Part shown: positions 15,652-41,110 of the stretch, one piece after another
How the letters are laid out: every line of letters starts with the position of its first letter
Numbering within the stretch: position 1 is the first letter of the stretch
Program-made: the position numbers and the translations under genes
IMG/VR virus record: IMGVR_UViG_3300008267_008796
Span: 1 to 41,177 of that record
Direction: 5' to 3' (one strand)
DNA: 41,177 nt
DNA from: a virus
Notes under the pieces: model-generated
What the model was told of the DNA's origin: nothing
The model's input: only the letters and a program-made list of their open reading frames with translations
The model's database searches: none

Positions 15652-16440
15652 ATGAGTTTTGCATTTGATCTAATTTCTGACCTGCACAGTGAGACCTGGC
15701 CTGAATTTGTTTGGACCGGCCAAGCCACCAGTGCTTACGCTATAGTAGCCGGTGATTTGGCCCGAGACCGCAACACTGTGCTTGACATGCTTAGACATCT
15801 AGGTCAGTGTTACCAGGCAGTGTTTTACATTGATGGCAACGACGAACATCGATATTATTATGATAACTTGAAAGCCAGTTTTGCTGATTTGTCAAAAAAG
15901 ATAAAGAAAATCCCCAACGTGGTGTTTTTGCAGGACAATGTGGCTGTGGTAGACGGTGTGGCTATATTGGCCACCAATGGATGGTGGACCTATGACCTGG
16001 ATTGCAGTATTGATGCTGAACAAACTTCCCTGTGGTTCCAAGAACAATGTGCAATCAGTGCCCAAACGGCCAAAATTGTGGGGAGAATGGCCACCACAGA
16101 TGCCAACTACATGATCAGCAGTGTAAAACGTTTGCAAACTCATGCGGATGTGAAAAAAATTGTATGTGTGACCCACACTGTGCCCGCGGCTGAGTTGATT
16201 TCACATGACATCAGTTTGGCCAACACTTTGCGATTCAACACCATGGGCAATGGCTTTATGTCGCGGGCGCTCAGTGCTGATACTGAACACAAGGTGCATA
16301 CTTGGTGTTTTGGACATTATCATGGCGCGGTAGATCAAATTCGTCATGGTGTGAGATTTGTCAACAACTGTCGCGGTAGAGCAGACACTGAATGGAGGCA
16401 GTACGTGTATCATCCCAAACGCATTGTGATAGCTGACTAA
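15652..16440 (+). CDS. Calcineurin-like metallophosphoesterase
   Basis: A 262-residue protein with the phosphoesterase motifs Asp10/His12 (ISDLHSE), Asp35 (AGDLARD), Asn63 in DGNDEH (a GNHD/E variant), His in VTHTVP near 174 and GHYHG near 223. It is unlike the PlcP-type enzyme elsewhere and resembles small Ser/Thr-phosphatase-like or nucleotide phosphoesterases of phages. The substrate is unknown. There is no Shine-Dalgarno; TTTAAATATATATC directly precedes the ATG. It ends with a 4-nt overlap against clpS on the other strand. Confidence 0.85.
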   Translation: MSFAFDLISDLHSETWPEFVWTGQATSAYAIVAGDLARDRNTVLDMLRHLGQCYQAVFYIDGNDEHRYYYDNLKASFADLSKKIKKIPNVVFLQDNVAVVDGVAILATNGWWTYDLDCSIDAEQTSLWFQEQCAISAQTAKIVGRMATTDANYMISSVKRLQTHADVKKIVCVTHTVPAAELISHDISLANTLRFNTMGNGFMSRALSADTEHKVHTWCFGHYHGAVDQIRHGVRFVNNCRGRADTEWRQYVYHPKRIVIAD

Positions 16441-16748
16441 TTCACCGTTTCAGGTTCCAGTTTGATCTGTAATGGATAACTTTGTGATCTTGCACTAAGT
16501 GTGACTTCAATGCCTTTTTGTTCGGCAATTTCATACGGCAACACTGCCACAGTGGCAGCACCAGTTTGGTGAATATCAATGGTTATTTGCTCTGCTGTTT
16601 CTGCTGTGTAGTCAAAGTACTCAATCAAACTTTCCACCACAAACTCCAATGTGGTTTGGTTATCGTTTAGGTAGATAACTTTGAACATGGGCGGTTCTTG
16701 CACAGCCTCAGATGGTTTGATTCGGGTACGGGTGTCACTTTGAGCCAT
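16437..16748 (-). CDS. clpS: ClpS adaptor protein
   Basis: A 103-residue ClpS. In bacteria ClpS binds the N-domain of ClpA and delivers N-degron proteins to ClpAP. Seen: a flexible N-terminus, then FKVIYLNDNQTTLEFVVESL (22-41), corresponding to the LLNDDYTPMEFV block that forms the N-degron pocket, the helix TAEQITIDIHQTGAATVAVLP, and EIAEQKGIEV. The second Asp of the NDD motif is Asn here. AAGGAATAAAA precedes the ATG. It lies downstream of hsp20 and in the same block as clpX, suggesting the phage redirects host proteolysis. Confidence 0.92.
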   Translation of the reverse strand: MAQSDTRTRIKPSEAVQEPPMFKVIYLNDNQTTLEFVVESLIEYFDYTAETAEQITIDIHQTGAATVAVLPYEIAEQKGIEVTLSARSQSYPLQIKLEPETVN

Positions 16749-16768: not shown

Positions 16769-16794
16769 CAGTGACAGCAGGATTGCTGTCACTG
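16769..16794 (-). other. Strong hairpin between hsp20 and clpS
   Basis: A perfect 11-bp inverted repeat, CAGTGACAGCA/TGCTGTCACTG, with a 4-nt loop lies between the hsp20 stop and the clpS ATG. It lacks a T-run on either strand, so a processing/stability element or attenuator is more likely than a classical terminator. Confidence 0.6.
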
Positions 16795-16807
16795 TATTTA
16801 CATTATA

Positions 16808-17272
16808 TTACTCTTTGTAGGAGATCGCAATGGTCTTTGGTTTGGCATCTTCGGGTACTTCACGTTTCAAGTGAATATTCAAGATACCAAGTTCAAGATG
16901 TGCATTGCTGATTTCCACATGATCAGCCAATTGAAATTCCCTGCGGAAACTTCGTTCGCTGATGCCTTTGTGCAAGTATTTTGTAGTGGATTCTTCATAT
17001 GCACTGTCCATGTTCTCACGACTGTGCTTGCCTTCAATGATCAAGAATTTTTTGTCCTTGGTAACACTCAAGTTGTCAAATCCAAAACCAGCCACAGCCA
17101 AACTGATCATGTACTCATCATCATTGATTTGCACAATGTCATAAGGTGGATAGTTGTTGTTGCTTTGTTGGGCACTCACACGCATGAGTTCATCAAACAT
17201 GTTATCAAAACCGATACCAAATTTGTGAATTGCTGGAAGATCGAATGTGCGAAGGGTTAGAGTTTTTGTCAT
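16808..17272 (-). CDS. hsp20: Small heat shock protein Hsp20
   Basis: A 154-residue alpha-crystallin chaperone. Seen: N-terminal arm, then NYPPYDIVQINDDEYMISLAVAGF, FLIIEGKHSRE, the long loop to YLHKGISERSFRREFQLADHVE, and GILNIHLKREVPE; the C-terminus has KPKTIAIS, an IxI-like tail motif. In family members it holds unfolding proteins as oligomers. Hsp20 is a known hallmark of T4-like aquatic phages. AAAGGAG precedes the ATG, and an exact TATAAATA lies about 65 nt upstream, giving a leader with an imperfect stem around 17310-17335. Confidence 0.95.
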   Translation of the reverse strand: MTKTLTLRTFDLPAIHKFGIGFDNMFDELMRVSAQQSNNNYPPYDIVQINDDEYMISLAVAGFGFDNLSVTKDKKFLIIEGKHSRENMDSAYEESTTKYLHKGISERSFRREFQLADHVEISNAHLELGILNIHLKREVPEDAKPKTIAISYKE

Positions 17273-23791: not shown

Positions 23792-23916
23792 TATGCAGCC
23801 TTCAAAAAGTCTTGGTGCACCATGAACGACCCGGCACCGTGACGGGTAGGCGCAATCTCTACTATCTCTCCATATGTAGAAATCACAAAATACTGTTGAC
23901 CTTGATATGTGACCAT
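23791..23916 (-). CDS. Small protein (41 aa)
   Basis: ATG at 23916 with GGAGG eight bases upstream, sharing one base with the preceding stop (TAATG) and one with the next start. The 41-residue product is MVTYQGQQYFVISTYGEIVE followed by a short helix; unrecognised. The chained overlaps with both neighbours and the ribosome site support it as real. Confidence 0.65.
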   Translation of the reverse strand: MVTYQGQQYFVISTYGEIVEIAPTRHGAGSFMVHQDFLKAA

Positions 23917-24200
23917 TATACGGCCTCCAACATGTTGGCTGGCACCTTCCACAGCATGGAACCGTCTTTGACTGTGACATACTTGATGGCAACCTTGGTC
24001 ACTGTGCCTTGTACCACAAGACCGCCACGCTTGGCGCTGGTGAACTTGACTGTGTCACCTTTGGTGAACGTGCGGATCTTTTGCTTGCCTAACTGGGCAC
24101 GAGCATACTGCACCGCACTCACAATGCTGTTGAGTTGTTCGTTTGTAAAATCGCCAAACATGATGGCAGTGTTGACTTCTTGGATTGTTGCGTATGTCAT
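23916..24200 (-). CDS. Conserved phage protein (94 aa), KOW/SH3-like C-terminus
   Basis: A 94-residue protein: an N-terminal helical part (TYATIQEVNTAIMFGDFTNEQLNSIVSAV) and a basic beta part (FTKGDTVKFTSAKRGGLVVQGTVTKVAIKYVTVKD) that looks like a small KOW/SH3 barrel, the type that binds RNA or ribosomes. The same outline occurs in cyanophages. It is the first gene behind a strong sigma70 promoter with an upstream palindrome, so it is probably early expressed. AAAGGAG precedes the ATG. Confidence 0.8.
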   Translation of the reverse strand: MTYATIQEVNTAIMFGDFTNEQLNSIVSAVQYARAQLGKQKIRTFTKGDTVKFTSAKRGGLVVQGTVTKVAIKYVTVKDGSMLWKVPANMLEAV

Positions 24201-24230: not shown

Positions 24231-24259
24231 ATTATAGCATTTTGGCAATTATTGGTCAA
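24231..24259 (-). promoter_or_regulatory. Sigma70 promoter of the 94-aa gene
   Basis: TTGACC (24259-24254), 17-nt spacer, TATAAT (24236-24231) on the minus strand. Promoter and leader are nearly the same as those at 24588-24616. Confidence 0.88.
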
Positions 24260-24270
24260 CCACCAAAACG

Positions 24271-24288
24271 GTAATACTCAAGTATTAC
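24271..24288 (-). promoter_or_regulatory. 18-bp palindrome upstream of promoter (operator candidate)
   Basis: GTAATACTCAAGTATTAC has perfect 8-bp arms and lies 11 nt upstream of the -35. It overlaps the stop codon of the 90-aa gene. A second copy with one mismatch sits in the same place before the next promoter. Confidence 0.65.
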
Positions 24289-24557
24289 ATGCTCCAGAAA
24301 GTTTCGCTGGAGGGTGAGCAGAAGTAAGGCGTGTCATAACGTTCCTGGTATGTCTTACCAGTCATCATGTTGCGTTTGGTAACCCAGGTCTCATGGGGTT
24401 CCACAATGAAACCCAATTTAGTTTTGGATTCAATCACCGCCCGGATATAGGCTCTGGTCACAGGAGCAAATTCTTCTTTTGCCACAAGACGCTTGCCTTC
24501 TTTTACCCGCTTGTCAGATTTGTACAGTTCCAATGTGTATTCAACTAATGCAGTCAT
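24285..24557 (-). CDS. Hypothetical early-type protein (90 aa)
   Basis: A 90-residue basic protein (VEYTLELYKSDKRVKEGKRLV, EFAPVTRAYIRAVIESKTKL, TKRNMMTGKTYQERYDTPYF) of no recognised family. AAAAAGGAG precedes the ATG; the leader resembles that of the 94-aa gene, and it has its own consensus promoter and upstream palindrome, pointing to early expression under the same control. Confidence 0.72.
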   Translation of the reverse strand: MTALVEYTLELYKSDKRVKEGKRLVAKEEFAPVTRAYIRAVIESKTKLGFIVEPHETWVTKRNMMTGKTYQERYDTPYFCSPSSETFWSM

Positions 24558-24587
24558 TTTGGCTCCTTTTTGCTACTCTATGTCTAT

Positions 24588-24616
24588 ATTATAGCAAAAT
24601 GGGCATTTCTGGTCAA
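24588..24616 (-). promoter_or_regulatory. Sigma70 promoter of the 90-aa gene
   Basis: TTGACC (24616-24611), 17-nt spacer, TATAAT (24593-24588) on the minus strand, with a TGC just before the -10 as in the neighbouring copy. Confidence 0.88.
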
Positions 24617-24626
24617 CCGCTAAAAA

Positions 24627-24644
24627 GTAGTACTTGAGTATTAC
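24627..24644 (-). promoter_or_regulatory. 18-bp palindrome upstream of promoter (operator candidate, copy 2)
   Basis: GTAGTACTTGAGTATTAC, one mismatch from perfect symmetry, 10 nt upstream of the -35. It overlaps the stop of the 282-aa virion gene. Same core and position as the copy at 24271-24288. Confidence 0.65.
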
Positions 24645-25489
24645 ACCAGTGCCCGTGCTTCTGCGGGTGTGTATTCGCTGTCGCTCAGTGTGGCCTGCGG
24701 AGGAACTGCATTGGGTTGGCTGGGCACATCATTGTCGGGCTTCAAGCCAGAGGCGTTGAGTCCTGCGGTATTACGCCCTTCACGCAACGCACCCACCATG
24801 GCCTGACCTGACTGGTTGGCAGTATTGGCAATACTTTCCAAAAATTCAGCTGCCATGCCAGTTTGTGTTTCTTGTCCGTAGCCGGCCAGGGCAGGAATGA
24901 AAGCAGTGATGGGCAACTGAGCGCCAGCTGTGAGTGTGGTATAGTCAATGCTGGCTTGAGTTTGAAAGATGCTTTCGTTGGCACTGTGTTGTACCATTGC
25001 GGTCCAAGCAGTGTTCAAGGTGGCAGTTGCAGTGCCCATGGCAGTGATGGCTGTACCGATCTCAGCATCAGCGGCTGTGACCAATACCACCAAGGCTGAA
25101 TTATAACTGGCATAGGGATTTCCGGCATTGTAAGGTGCTGGAAGAGCAATTGCACCTGGCAATCCATACACATCGGTAATGAGATTTTTCATATAAGAGT
25201 ATATGGTGTTGAGTGTGGTCAATGTTCCGGCTGTGAGTTGTGCTGAGATAGTACTGGTAACTGTGGTCAAATAATCATTGTAAGGAATACCAGCTGCTGA
25301 TCCAAAAAAGTCTGTGGTCAAGAATGTGCCATTGGGTCCAGAACCCAATGCTATGTTTGTGCTATAATATGTGGCCACATCAGCAGGTACAGGTGTGGCG
25401 GTATTGGCAATCAATGGTAGCCCCTTGAGTGTGCCTAATTTTCTTGAAAATGCTGCCGTCTCGGCTGCTGTTTGATTTAGAGTGGTCAT
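24641..25489 (-). CDS. Virion structural protein candidate (282 aa)
   Basis: A 282-residue protein very rich in Ala, Thr and Ser with few charges, e.g. TTVTSTISAQLTAGTLTTLNTIYSYM and GTAITAMGTATATLNTAW, typical of tail or baseplate proteins. It ends with a Pro-rich stretch. It follows the 384-aa gene by ATGA overlap, and that gene follows the PAAR protein, so a role in the tail tip or baseplate is inferred from context. No specific family recognised. Confidence 0.7.
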   Translation of the reverse strand: MTTLNQTAAETAAFSRKLGTLKGLPLIANTATPVPADVATYYSTNIALGSGPNGTFLTTDFFGSAAGIPYNDYLTTVTSTISAQLTAGTLTTLNTIYSYMKNLITDVYGLPGAIALPAPYNAGNPYASYNSALVVLVTAADAEIGTAITAMGTATATLNTAWTAMVQHSANESIFQTQASIDYTTLTAGAQLPITAFIPALAGYGQETQTGMAAEFLESIANTANQSGQAMVGALREGRNTAGLNASGLKPDNDVPSQPNAVPPQATLSDSEYTPAEARALV

Positions 25490-39845: not shown

Positions 39846-40202
39846 TTATACGCCGCGGTCTTTGCCGGCGGCGGATTTGGCCGAGGCAGCCACAATGTCT
39901 TGCGCTTTGTTCACCGGCATTTGGGTTGGTCCGTCAGGAGCCGAGCCTTTGTATTTGATTACCGTGGGATTTTGCGGATCCATGGGTTCTAAAACTGAAT
40001 CCAATGGGGCTTGACTCACCACGCTTACAATGTTTTTTTGATTGACCGGAAACCCCAAACTTTGAGCGGCGCTGATGAATGCATCTGTGCTGATTTGTTT
40101 TTGTGCATTTTCATCATCGGCTCTGCCTGATAGAAAATTCACTAGACCCAATAATTTTTTTGGATCTGTTGAATTGCTGTTTTCGACTTCGTCGATTCTC
40201 AT
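39846..40202 (-). CDS. Hypothetical protein (118 aa), phage-conserved type
   Basis: A 118-residue hydrophilic protein: MRIDEVENSNSTDPKKLLGLVNFLSGRADDENA, then ISTDAFISAAQSLGFPV, and an Ala/Lys-rich C-terminus. Charged, mainly helical; no recognised domain. The start is coupled to the 302-aa gene by TAATG. This kind of gene pair is often near capsid or scaffold genes in aquatic T4-like phages; the role here is not shown. Confidence 0.72.
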   Translation of the reverse strand: MRIDEVENSNSTDPKKLLGLVNFLSGRADDENAQKQISTDAFISAAQSLGFPVNQKNIVSVVSQAPLDSVLEPMDPQNPTVIKYKGSAPDGPTQMPVNKAQDIVAASAKSAAGKDRGV

Positions 40203-41110
40203 TATCTACGGGCTCTGCCCAGTGCGGCTCCGGCTGGTGCTGGTTCTTCAGCGTCCATTTCAGCACCCATTTCAGCACCCATTTCAGCACCCATTTCAGC
40301 ACCCATTTCAGCATCGGCTTCGGCACCTGACAGTGGAGCAGGTGCAGCACCTGGCACACCACTGGCAGCCATACTGGTGTCTAATGCAGCAGGTTGGCCT
40401 GTGACCACACCCAGTGCTGTTTCCAGTTGTTGCTTGGAACCTTGCAAGTTTTGTACAAGCCCTTGCAATGCCGCAGTGACATCAGTGTTGAATTGTGTGG
40501 CTTGTTCCATGCCAATTTGATTGCGGATACTATCAACCAAGGCAGGCAGTTCTTTAAATTGCATCTCTGTGGTGTCTTCCAACATCGATTGCATTTTGTC
40601 TACCATGTCTTGTGCAGCCAGCACAACTTGTGCTTGCTGAACTTCTGATTCTTTCAAGAACTGGTATGCTCTACGCAAACGGCTTTCGGCAGTCAGTGTG
40701 GCCTGTGCATTGATTAGTTCTTGTTCTTCGGGAGAAGGAGTCTGACCTTTTGCCAGTTTGTCTTTGGCTGCCTTGAGCTTGGCTTCGGCTGCTGGATCAG
40801 CTGCCACGTTGCCTGTTGGCTGTGTGCCGGGTTTTGCTGCGGCACCTGCTGGGGGTGCCATGTCTTCGCTCACACGATGTGCAAGGGCCTGTTCCATCAT
40901 CACCAGTTTCAAGTAAGCAGGATTGCGCTCACTGGTGTGACGACCAGTACCACGCTGATGTTCAGCAATCACACCACGCACACGTTTCAGCATGGTCTGT
41001 GCTTCACGCACTGTGAGTTTGTCCACAGGCATCTTGGTACCAAAGTAACTTTCAAATACTCGGGACACTTGGCGGCTCTTTTTTGGCGTGGCCAGTTCAG
41101 TTAATTTCAT
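40202..41110 (-). CDS. Ala/Gln-rich helical phage protein with a Met-Gly-Ala-Glu repeat (302 aa)
   Basis: A 302-residue protein with an N-terminal segment (RQVSRVFESYFGTKMPVDKL, REAQTMLKRVRGVIAEHQ, SERNPAYLKLVMMEQALA), a long Ala/Lys/Gln helical middle (QQAQVVLAAQDMVDKMQSML) and a C-terminal low-complexity acidic tail with five AEM[GD] units. The pattern suits a scaffold-like or virion-associated protein, but no motif proves this. AGAGGA precedes the ATG. CTAAATAT lies about 30 nt upstream as a possible late promoter. Confidence 0.75.
   Translation of the reverse strand: MKLTELATPKKSRQVSRVFESYFGTKMPVDKLTVREAQTMLKRVRGVIAEHQRGTGRHTSERNPAYLKLVMMEQALAHRVSEDMAPPAGAAAKPGTQPTGNVAADPAAEAKLKAAKDKLAKGQTPSPEEQELINAQATLTAESRLRRAYQFLKESEVQQAQVVLAAQDMVDKMQSMLEDTTEMQFKELPALVDSIRNQIGMEQATQFNTDVTAALQGLVQNLQGSKQQLETALGVVTGQPAALDTSMAASGVPGAAPAPLSGAEADAEMGAEMGAEMGAEMGAEMDAEEPAPAGAALGRARR
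40254..40313 (-). repeat. 12-bp tandem repeat, five copies, in-frame
   Basis: Five 12-bp units with CCATTTCAGCA in common (plus-strand reading), encoding AEMG/AEMD in the 302-aa protein. The first unit differs by one base from the other four. It is a coding microsatellite and could change length by slippage without breaking the frame. Confidence 0.9.

Follow-up and report, generated by a model that had tools for sequence, protein, structure and literature searches.

Organisation of the locus

The DNA analysed here, referred to as the window, is the whole 41,177-nucleotide stretch of the IMG/VR virus record IMGVR_UViG_3300008267_008796. It encodes ribonucleotide reductase subunits, ClpS and a DNA polymerase whose best matches are DnaE-like. 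Two promoter modules lie on its minus strand, with the following features between positions 23,916 and 25,489:

24641..25489, minus strand: gene upstream of module 1, 282 aa; its stop codon lies inside palindrome 1
24627..24644, minus strand: palindrome 1, operator-like, GTAATACTCAAGTACTAC, one mismatched pair; recurs in relatives
24611..24616, minus strand: promoter 1 -35, TTGACC
24588..24593, minus strand: promoter 1 -10, TATAAT, with TGc in front (extended -10)
24285..24557, minus strand: gene 1, 90 aa; no known family
24271..24288, minus strand: palindrome 2, operator-like, GTAATACTTGAGTATTAC, perfect
24254..24259, minus strand: promoter 2 -35, TTGACC
24231..24236, minus strand: promoter 2 -10, TATAAT, with TGc in front
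23916..24200, minus strand: gene 2, 94 aa; no PHROG or Pfam match, no known family

Both promoters have the form TTGACC-17-TATAAT with TG before the -10 and match the consensus at 11 of 12 positions; promoter 1 drives the start of gene 1 and promoter 2 that of gene 2. The leaders and ribosome-binding sites (AAAAGGAGCC) of the two modules align. The palindromes share the form GTAATACT-NN-AGTAYTAC and stand 10 bp (24627 to 24616) and 11 bp (24271 to 24259) above their -35 elements. Each contains a TAA that is the stop codon of the preceding gene, at 24643-24641 for the 282-aa gene in palindrome 1 and for gene 1 in palindrome 2. The initial annotation had described two minus-strand promoters with a common leader and ribosome site, a palindrome 10-11 nt above each -35 and the overlap of both palindromes with the preceding stop, and these points were confirmed. 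It had also spoken of a duplicated promoter module; the two modules are real, but the scope is wider, and they are the local case of a genome-wide module set. The early timing ascribed to these promoters and genes is presumed from the promoter type.

When the window was searched for the palindrome pattern with up to three mismatches, only the two sites were found, equal to four strand matches against 0.27 expected, and four matches were reached in 1 of 100 shuffles of the window. Three other perfect palindromes with 8-bp arms and a spacer of the same 2 bp are present in the window, so a lone palindrome of this kind is weak evidence; the weight of the two sites rests on repetition and position, not on palindromy alone. 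As a contrast case, a promoter matching the consensus at 12 of 12 positions (TTGACA-17-TATAAT, window 20846-20818, minus strand) has no such palindrome nearby.

Recurrence and promoter spacing in related phages

Protein searches recovered orthologs of gene 1 in 74 viral loci and of gene 2 in at least 80, on contigs of up to 367 kb. Among named phages, none close to gene 2 was found, and gene 1 gave short C-terminal matches only, in Sinorhizobium phage Phosso and Stenotrophomonas phage DLP_6. A blastn search with this region of the window gave no match, and a literature search for the motif returned nothing relevant. The pair of palindromes is retained in most close relatives. The initial annotation had suggested a dimer-type activator or repressor site, to be rejected if relatives lacked it; copies were present in dozens of relatives, at equal or helically equivalent positions, in support of such a putative site.

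The unit conserved across loci is GTANTAC-N4-GTANTAC, that is, two 7-bp boxes with a free central base and starts 11 bp apart. Large-phage relatives carry 3-9 copies per 200-350 kb contig, or 6-12 sites per large contig when one mismatch is allowed, and six contigs (212-349 kb) together hold 35 exact copies, each no more than 45 bp from a promoter. The palindrome usually stands at a gene end and often supplies the stop codon. The left box is mostly GTAATAC, likely because the TAA that ends the preceding gene is part of this form. Downstream of the sites lie 36 families of mostly small genes among the matches listed. In orthologs of gene 1 the palindrome stands at gap 10 (the gap being the distance to the -35) or at gap 0, or is missing, so that the same orthologous gene may have its site shifted by one turn; the genes ahead of gene 2 orthologs are of many different kinds, and the palindrome is there in some cases and not in others. 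TTGACC is the -35 in 37 of 48 site-bearing promoters versus 95 of 274 without sites (nominal P = 5e-8), and a TG-extended -10 is found in 47/48 versus 123/274. Site-bearing promoters are a distinct promoter class.

Two further sequence families were noted in these phages. Among the matches listed, 18 sites, 11 of them at gap 10, are followed directly by a member of a family of small GIY-YIG-like proteins (for example L193, L170 and L184); a free-standing GIY-YIG-like endonuclease could help to move the cassettes. A separate 18-mer, GTAATACCAATGTAGTAC, recurs at G003:157896, G018:129164, G020:8387 and G025:41586. In L089/L090, where it was examined, it is distant from any promoter, and it is therefore probably a conserved coding stretch and no operator.

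For the spacing analysis, two upstream scans, one of the viral collection for a box pair at any 0-30 bp above TTGACC and one for a box pair 22-52 bp above the -35, were merged and made non-redundant at 75% identity, giving 165 sites among the matches listed. Among these, the gap to the -35 was 0-1 bp for 28 sites, 8-12 bp for 53, 17-26 bp for 12, 30-37 bp for 60 and larger for 12, with none at 2-7, 13-16 or 27-29 bp. The 35 exact sites of the six contigs occupied gaps of 0-1 (8), 9-12 (15), 21 (2) and 31-33 bp (10) only. Among the matches listed from the 0-30 bp scan, sites with a -10 clustered at 0, 9-11 and ~20 bp, with a Rayleigh R of 0.81 at 10.5 bp (nominal P ~6e-14, a value that overstates independence because the sites share descent); sites without a -10 showed no clear periodicity (P = 0.20).

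The 22-52 bp scan revealed, among the matches listed, an extra class at 30-37 bp with its mode at 33. In these gap-30+ modules palindrome and promoter are usually separated by a GC-rich intrinsic terminator (L340-L446; for example L380, L401 and L344), and the order palindrome, GC-rich intrinsic terminator, promoter characterises a large class of modules among the matches listed. This order is that of an insulated operator-terminator-promoter cassette, with the operator putative. The class is broad (30-37 bp) and should not count for phase, because the length of the inserted terminator could set the gap.

All these sites adjoin near-consensus promoters on the upstream side. In the mirror scan, a box pair 0-30 bp downstream of the -10 of TTGACC-17-TATAAT was found zero times in the whole viral collection, versus many matches upstream of TTGACC promoters. 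Upstream-only placement and whole-turn spacing to the core promoter are the features expected of class I/II activator sites.

A putative operator and its proposed mode of action

We next consider how the site may be read. With any box spacer of 0-14 bp allowed, 59 pairs had a spacer of 4, 25 of 7 and 4 of 6 among the matches listed; many of the spacer-7 pairs overlap GTAGTACTAC. The two N bases formed Watson-Crick pairs in 18 of 59 sites against 16.6 expected, and in 64 of 165 against 57.2 expected, again among the matches listed. The fixed spacing of the boxes, together with the lack of covariation of the central N, therefore indicates a site read as DNA rather than as an RNA hairpin.

We propose, with a probability of roughly 0.6, that the palindrome is an operator for a symmetric and most likely phage-encoded protein, most likely an activator of a promoter subset acting through RNA polymerase. 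The protein would bind as a dimer or a pair of dimers, each subunit or dimer reading one 7-bp GTANTAC box, with the two boxes one helical turn (11 bp) apart on the same DNA face. Through contact with the alpha-CTD and/or sigma of RNA polymerase, it would most likely activate some of the phage's promoters of the sigma-70, extended -10 type. Site centres would fall at about -45 for gap 0, -55 for gaps of 10-11 (the case of the window), -66 for gaps of 20-21 and about -78 for a gap of ~33, the last class usually with an intrinsic terminator between operator and promoter. Operator, optional terminator, promoter and ribosome-binding site would then form a module placed at gene junctions, in which the TAA of the operator doubles as the stop codon of the preceding gene.

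Some observations weigh against this proposal. The promoters are already near the sigma-70 consensus, so the need for an activator is not obvious, and the 10-11 bp gap contains a T-rich part to which the tail of a terminator could contribute. Since the core promoters are strong, the main alternative is a repressor, in which a phage protein at the palindrome would shut the promoters off later, by polymerase contact or by occlusion of the upstream region. Near-consensus promoters need shut-off more than help, and the gap-0 sites abut the -35. Repressor sites, however, usually also overlap the -35, -10 or +1. This expectation is not borne out by the whole viral collection, in which no site follows the -10 within 0-30 bp, nor by the many sites that are separated from the -35 by 30-37 bp including a terminator. 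We prefer an activator because of the strictly upstream placement and the whole-turn spacing, and consider repression unlikely.

Known upstream regulators offer several parallels to the proposed activator. CRP, a host protein whose targets are typically weak promoters, works in its class I and class II modes from sites at several distances, whole helical turns apart, upstream of the -35. In contrast to CRP targets, the phage promoters are close to consensus, and their site seems to be specific to phages. PhoB/OmpR-type activators use 7-bp boxes with a 4-bp spacer, repeated with an 11-bp period above the -10. Box length, spacer and period are the same in the phage sites, whereas here each GTANTAC box is symmetric, the pair is often an inverted repeat and a good -35 is present. 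The P2 Ogr and P4 Delta late activators use a dyad-symmetric site near -55, which is the position of the gap 10-11 palindromes of the window; the sequence differs, and no Ogr_Delta match above cut-off was present in ten contigs. The CRP activation classes are used here as summarised in PMC4287176. The Mor protein of phage Mu is a dimeric activator that binds a dyad from -51 to -36, centred at -43.5 (PMC4287176). As at the Mor/C-dependent promoters of Mu (Pm and the late promoters), the dyad here lies just upstream of the promoter; the gap-0 palindromes match the Mor position, and those of the window lie one turn further up. The sequence is different from that of the Mor/C sites, Pm requires Mor, and ten contigs contained no Mor-family gene.

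In another explanation, the palindrome would serve mainly the upstream gene, as its stem-loop terminator or RNA-end element, and the repeated cassettes would shuffle genes by homologous recombination. Elements of this kind, the PeSLs, were reportedly described by Arbiol in 2010 and Comeau in 2014. As far as PMC4503421 presents them, PeSLs of T4-type phages are repeated cassettes of promoter and stem-loop among small variable genes. The resemblance extends to repeated sigma-70 promoter cassettes, many copies per genome and many different genes at one module, and the phages studied here differ in an added sequence-specific, phased palindrome that is itself no terminator and, for the window phage, in a DnaE-like polymerase. 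Also in keeping with a PeSL-like cassette, the palindrome usually sits at a gene end, often with the stop codon; some copies have A-run and T-run flanks and pair well; most gap-30+ modules hold true stem-loop terminators; and many different genes precede genes 1 and 2 in relatives.

The palindrome itself folds poorly. Among the matches listed, the 18-mer hairpin has a median MFE of -3 to -4 kcal/mol, and the terminator segments of gap-30+ modules have one of -13.8 kcal/mol. Copy 1 of the window folds no better than shuffled sequence, and the gap-0 copies lack a T-run and have a median MFE of -3.1 kcal/mol. The palindrome also persists beside strong GC-rich terminators, and its spacing to the promoter is quantised. 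It thus lacks the GC-rich stable stem, compensatory variation and U-tract of an intrinsic terminator. A terminator or RNA hairpin as the main function was rejected on the absent N-N covariation, the weak folding and the gap-0 copies without a T-run, and we regard the PeSL-like explanation as a whole as quite unlikely. At position 4895 of L085/L086, a symmetric double substitution in the palindrome (GTAACACTTGAGTGTTAC; GTAACAC...GTGTTAC) keeps full symmetry; this change is compatible both with a symmetric protein site and with an RNA stem.

For the putative operator, the data suggest a phage-specific, phased site common to a clade of uncultivated large phages; upstream activator-type operators in mobile cassettes are already known. 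More tentatively, an undescribed activator family of these phages may read GTANTAC-N4-GTANTAC, turn-shifted between orthologous promoters, in portable operator-terminator-promoter cassettes that control dispersed small accessory genes. Such cassettes often, not always, include the terminator. For very large phages, known chiefly through metagenomes, transcription control has hardly been studied. An operator specific to phages and present in dozens of them would make a regulon readable directly from sequence and could serve as bait for finding its regulator, and the natural variants at zero, one and two turns, with the terminator-inserted class, would offer a test of how an upstream-bound factor acts on RNA polymerase. 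Gene shuffling in these phages may move complete insulated control cassettes.

Search for the reader protein

The reader could also be a host regulator whose site is exploited by the phages, since the use of host factors is common among phages. Species genomes of bacteria and archaea, 84,980 in all, were scanned for GTCAA N0-12 GTANTACTNNAGTANTAC and gave 6 matches, none with a -10 in register, although the scan demanded a TTGAC-type -35 and could miss host sites elsewhere in a promoter. As no comparable cellular promoter site was found, a phage-encoded reader is likelier than a host one, which we judge very unlikely. That the palindromes arose by chance, or by neutral descent of one repeated segment without regulatory role, is hardly credible: several copies clearly share descent and the window holds chance perfect palindromes of similar size, but dozens of unrelated genes follow the sites (36 families among the matches listed), the boxes are fixed and the centres variable, the spacing is in whole turns and no site lies downstream.

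Candidates for a phage-encoded reader were sought among the genes of the contigs. HTH_39 (PF14090) was rejected as regulator: it is present both in contigs that have the motif and in contigs that lack it, its recognition segment is near-identical in the motif-free G011, and HTH_39 loci contain no boxes. RHH_1, HTH_3 and ParB_N gave no matches above cut-off in the contigs searched. The Mor/C family (PF08765) was found in 0 of 10 large contigs, which may be incomplete, and Ogr_Delta (PF04606) gave, besides the absence of matches above cut-off in the ten contigs, one weak match in G016. Matches to the PHROG categories "DNA binding protein" and "transcriptional regulator" were likewise set aside; they occur in motif-positive and motif-poor contigs alike and are probably ferritin/Dps and RNA-polymerase-omega-like proteins. 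Comparison of gene presence and absence between the six motif-rich contigs and the motif-poor G001 (GC 36%) yielded no clear DNA-binding candidate.

The G003 contig encodes several proteins of separate interest. At G003:179031-179216, immediately after a gap-0 site, a 61-aa protein is encoded whose start (MKITISVPKSAVKAVKEYAKE) is ribbon-helix-helix-like; it has no Pfam or PHROG match, and most other motif-rich contigs gave no copy of it. A small protein at G003:C1:125218-125436 (L524) matches the PHROG "transcriptional regulator" phrog_639, as do proteins in G001, G005, G006 and G014. A match to the RNA polymerase omega/Rpb6 family (PF01192) in this contig is probably to that same phrog_639 protein; a phage-borne omega-like subunit would be of interest in its own right. 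Further Pfam matches in this contig (L279-L290) are S21, IF-1-like, NifU, Fe-S assembly, ferritin/Dps, SOD, ClpP and DnaJ.

Two other repeats were observed in the window. A 12-bp repeat (TTCAGCACCCAT) occurs in tandem at 40235-40330, within the coding frame 40202-41110 on the minus strand. A perfect inverted repeat with an 11-bp stem (CAGTGACAGCA GGAT TGCTGTCACTG) lies at 16769-16794 in the ClpS leader, between an HSP20-like gene (16808-17272) and the ClpS gene (16437-16748), and could be a terminator or a leader regulator.
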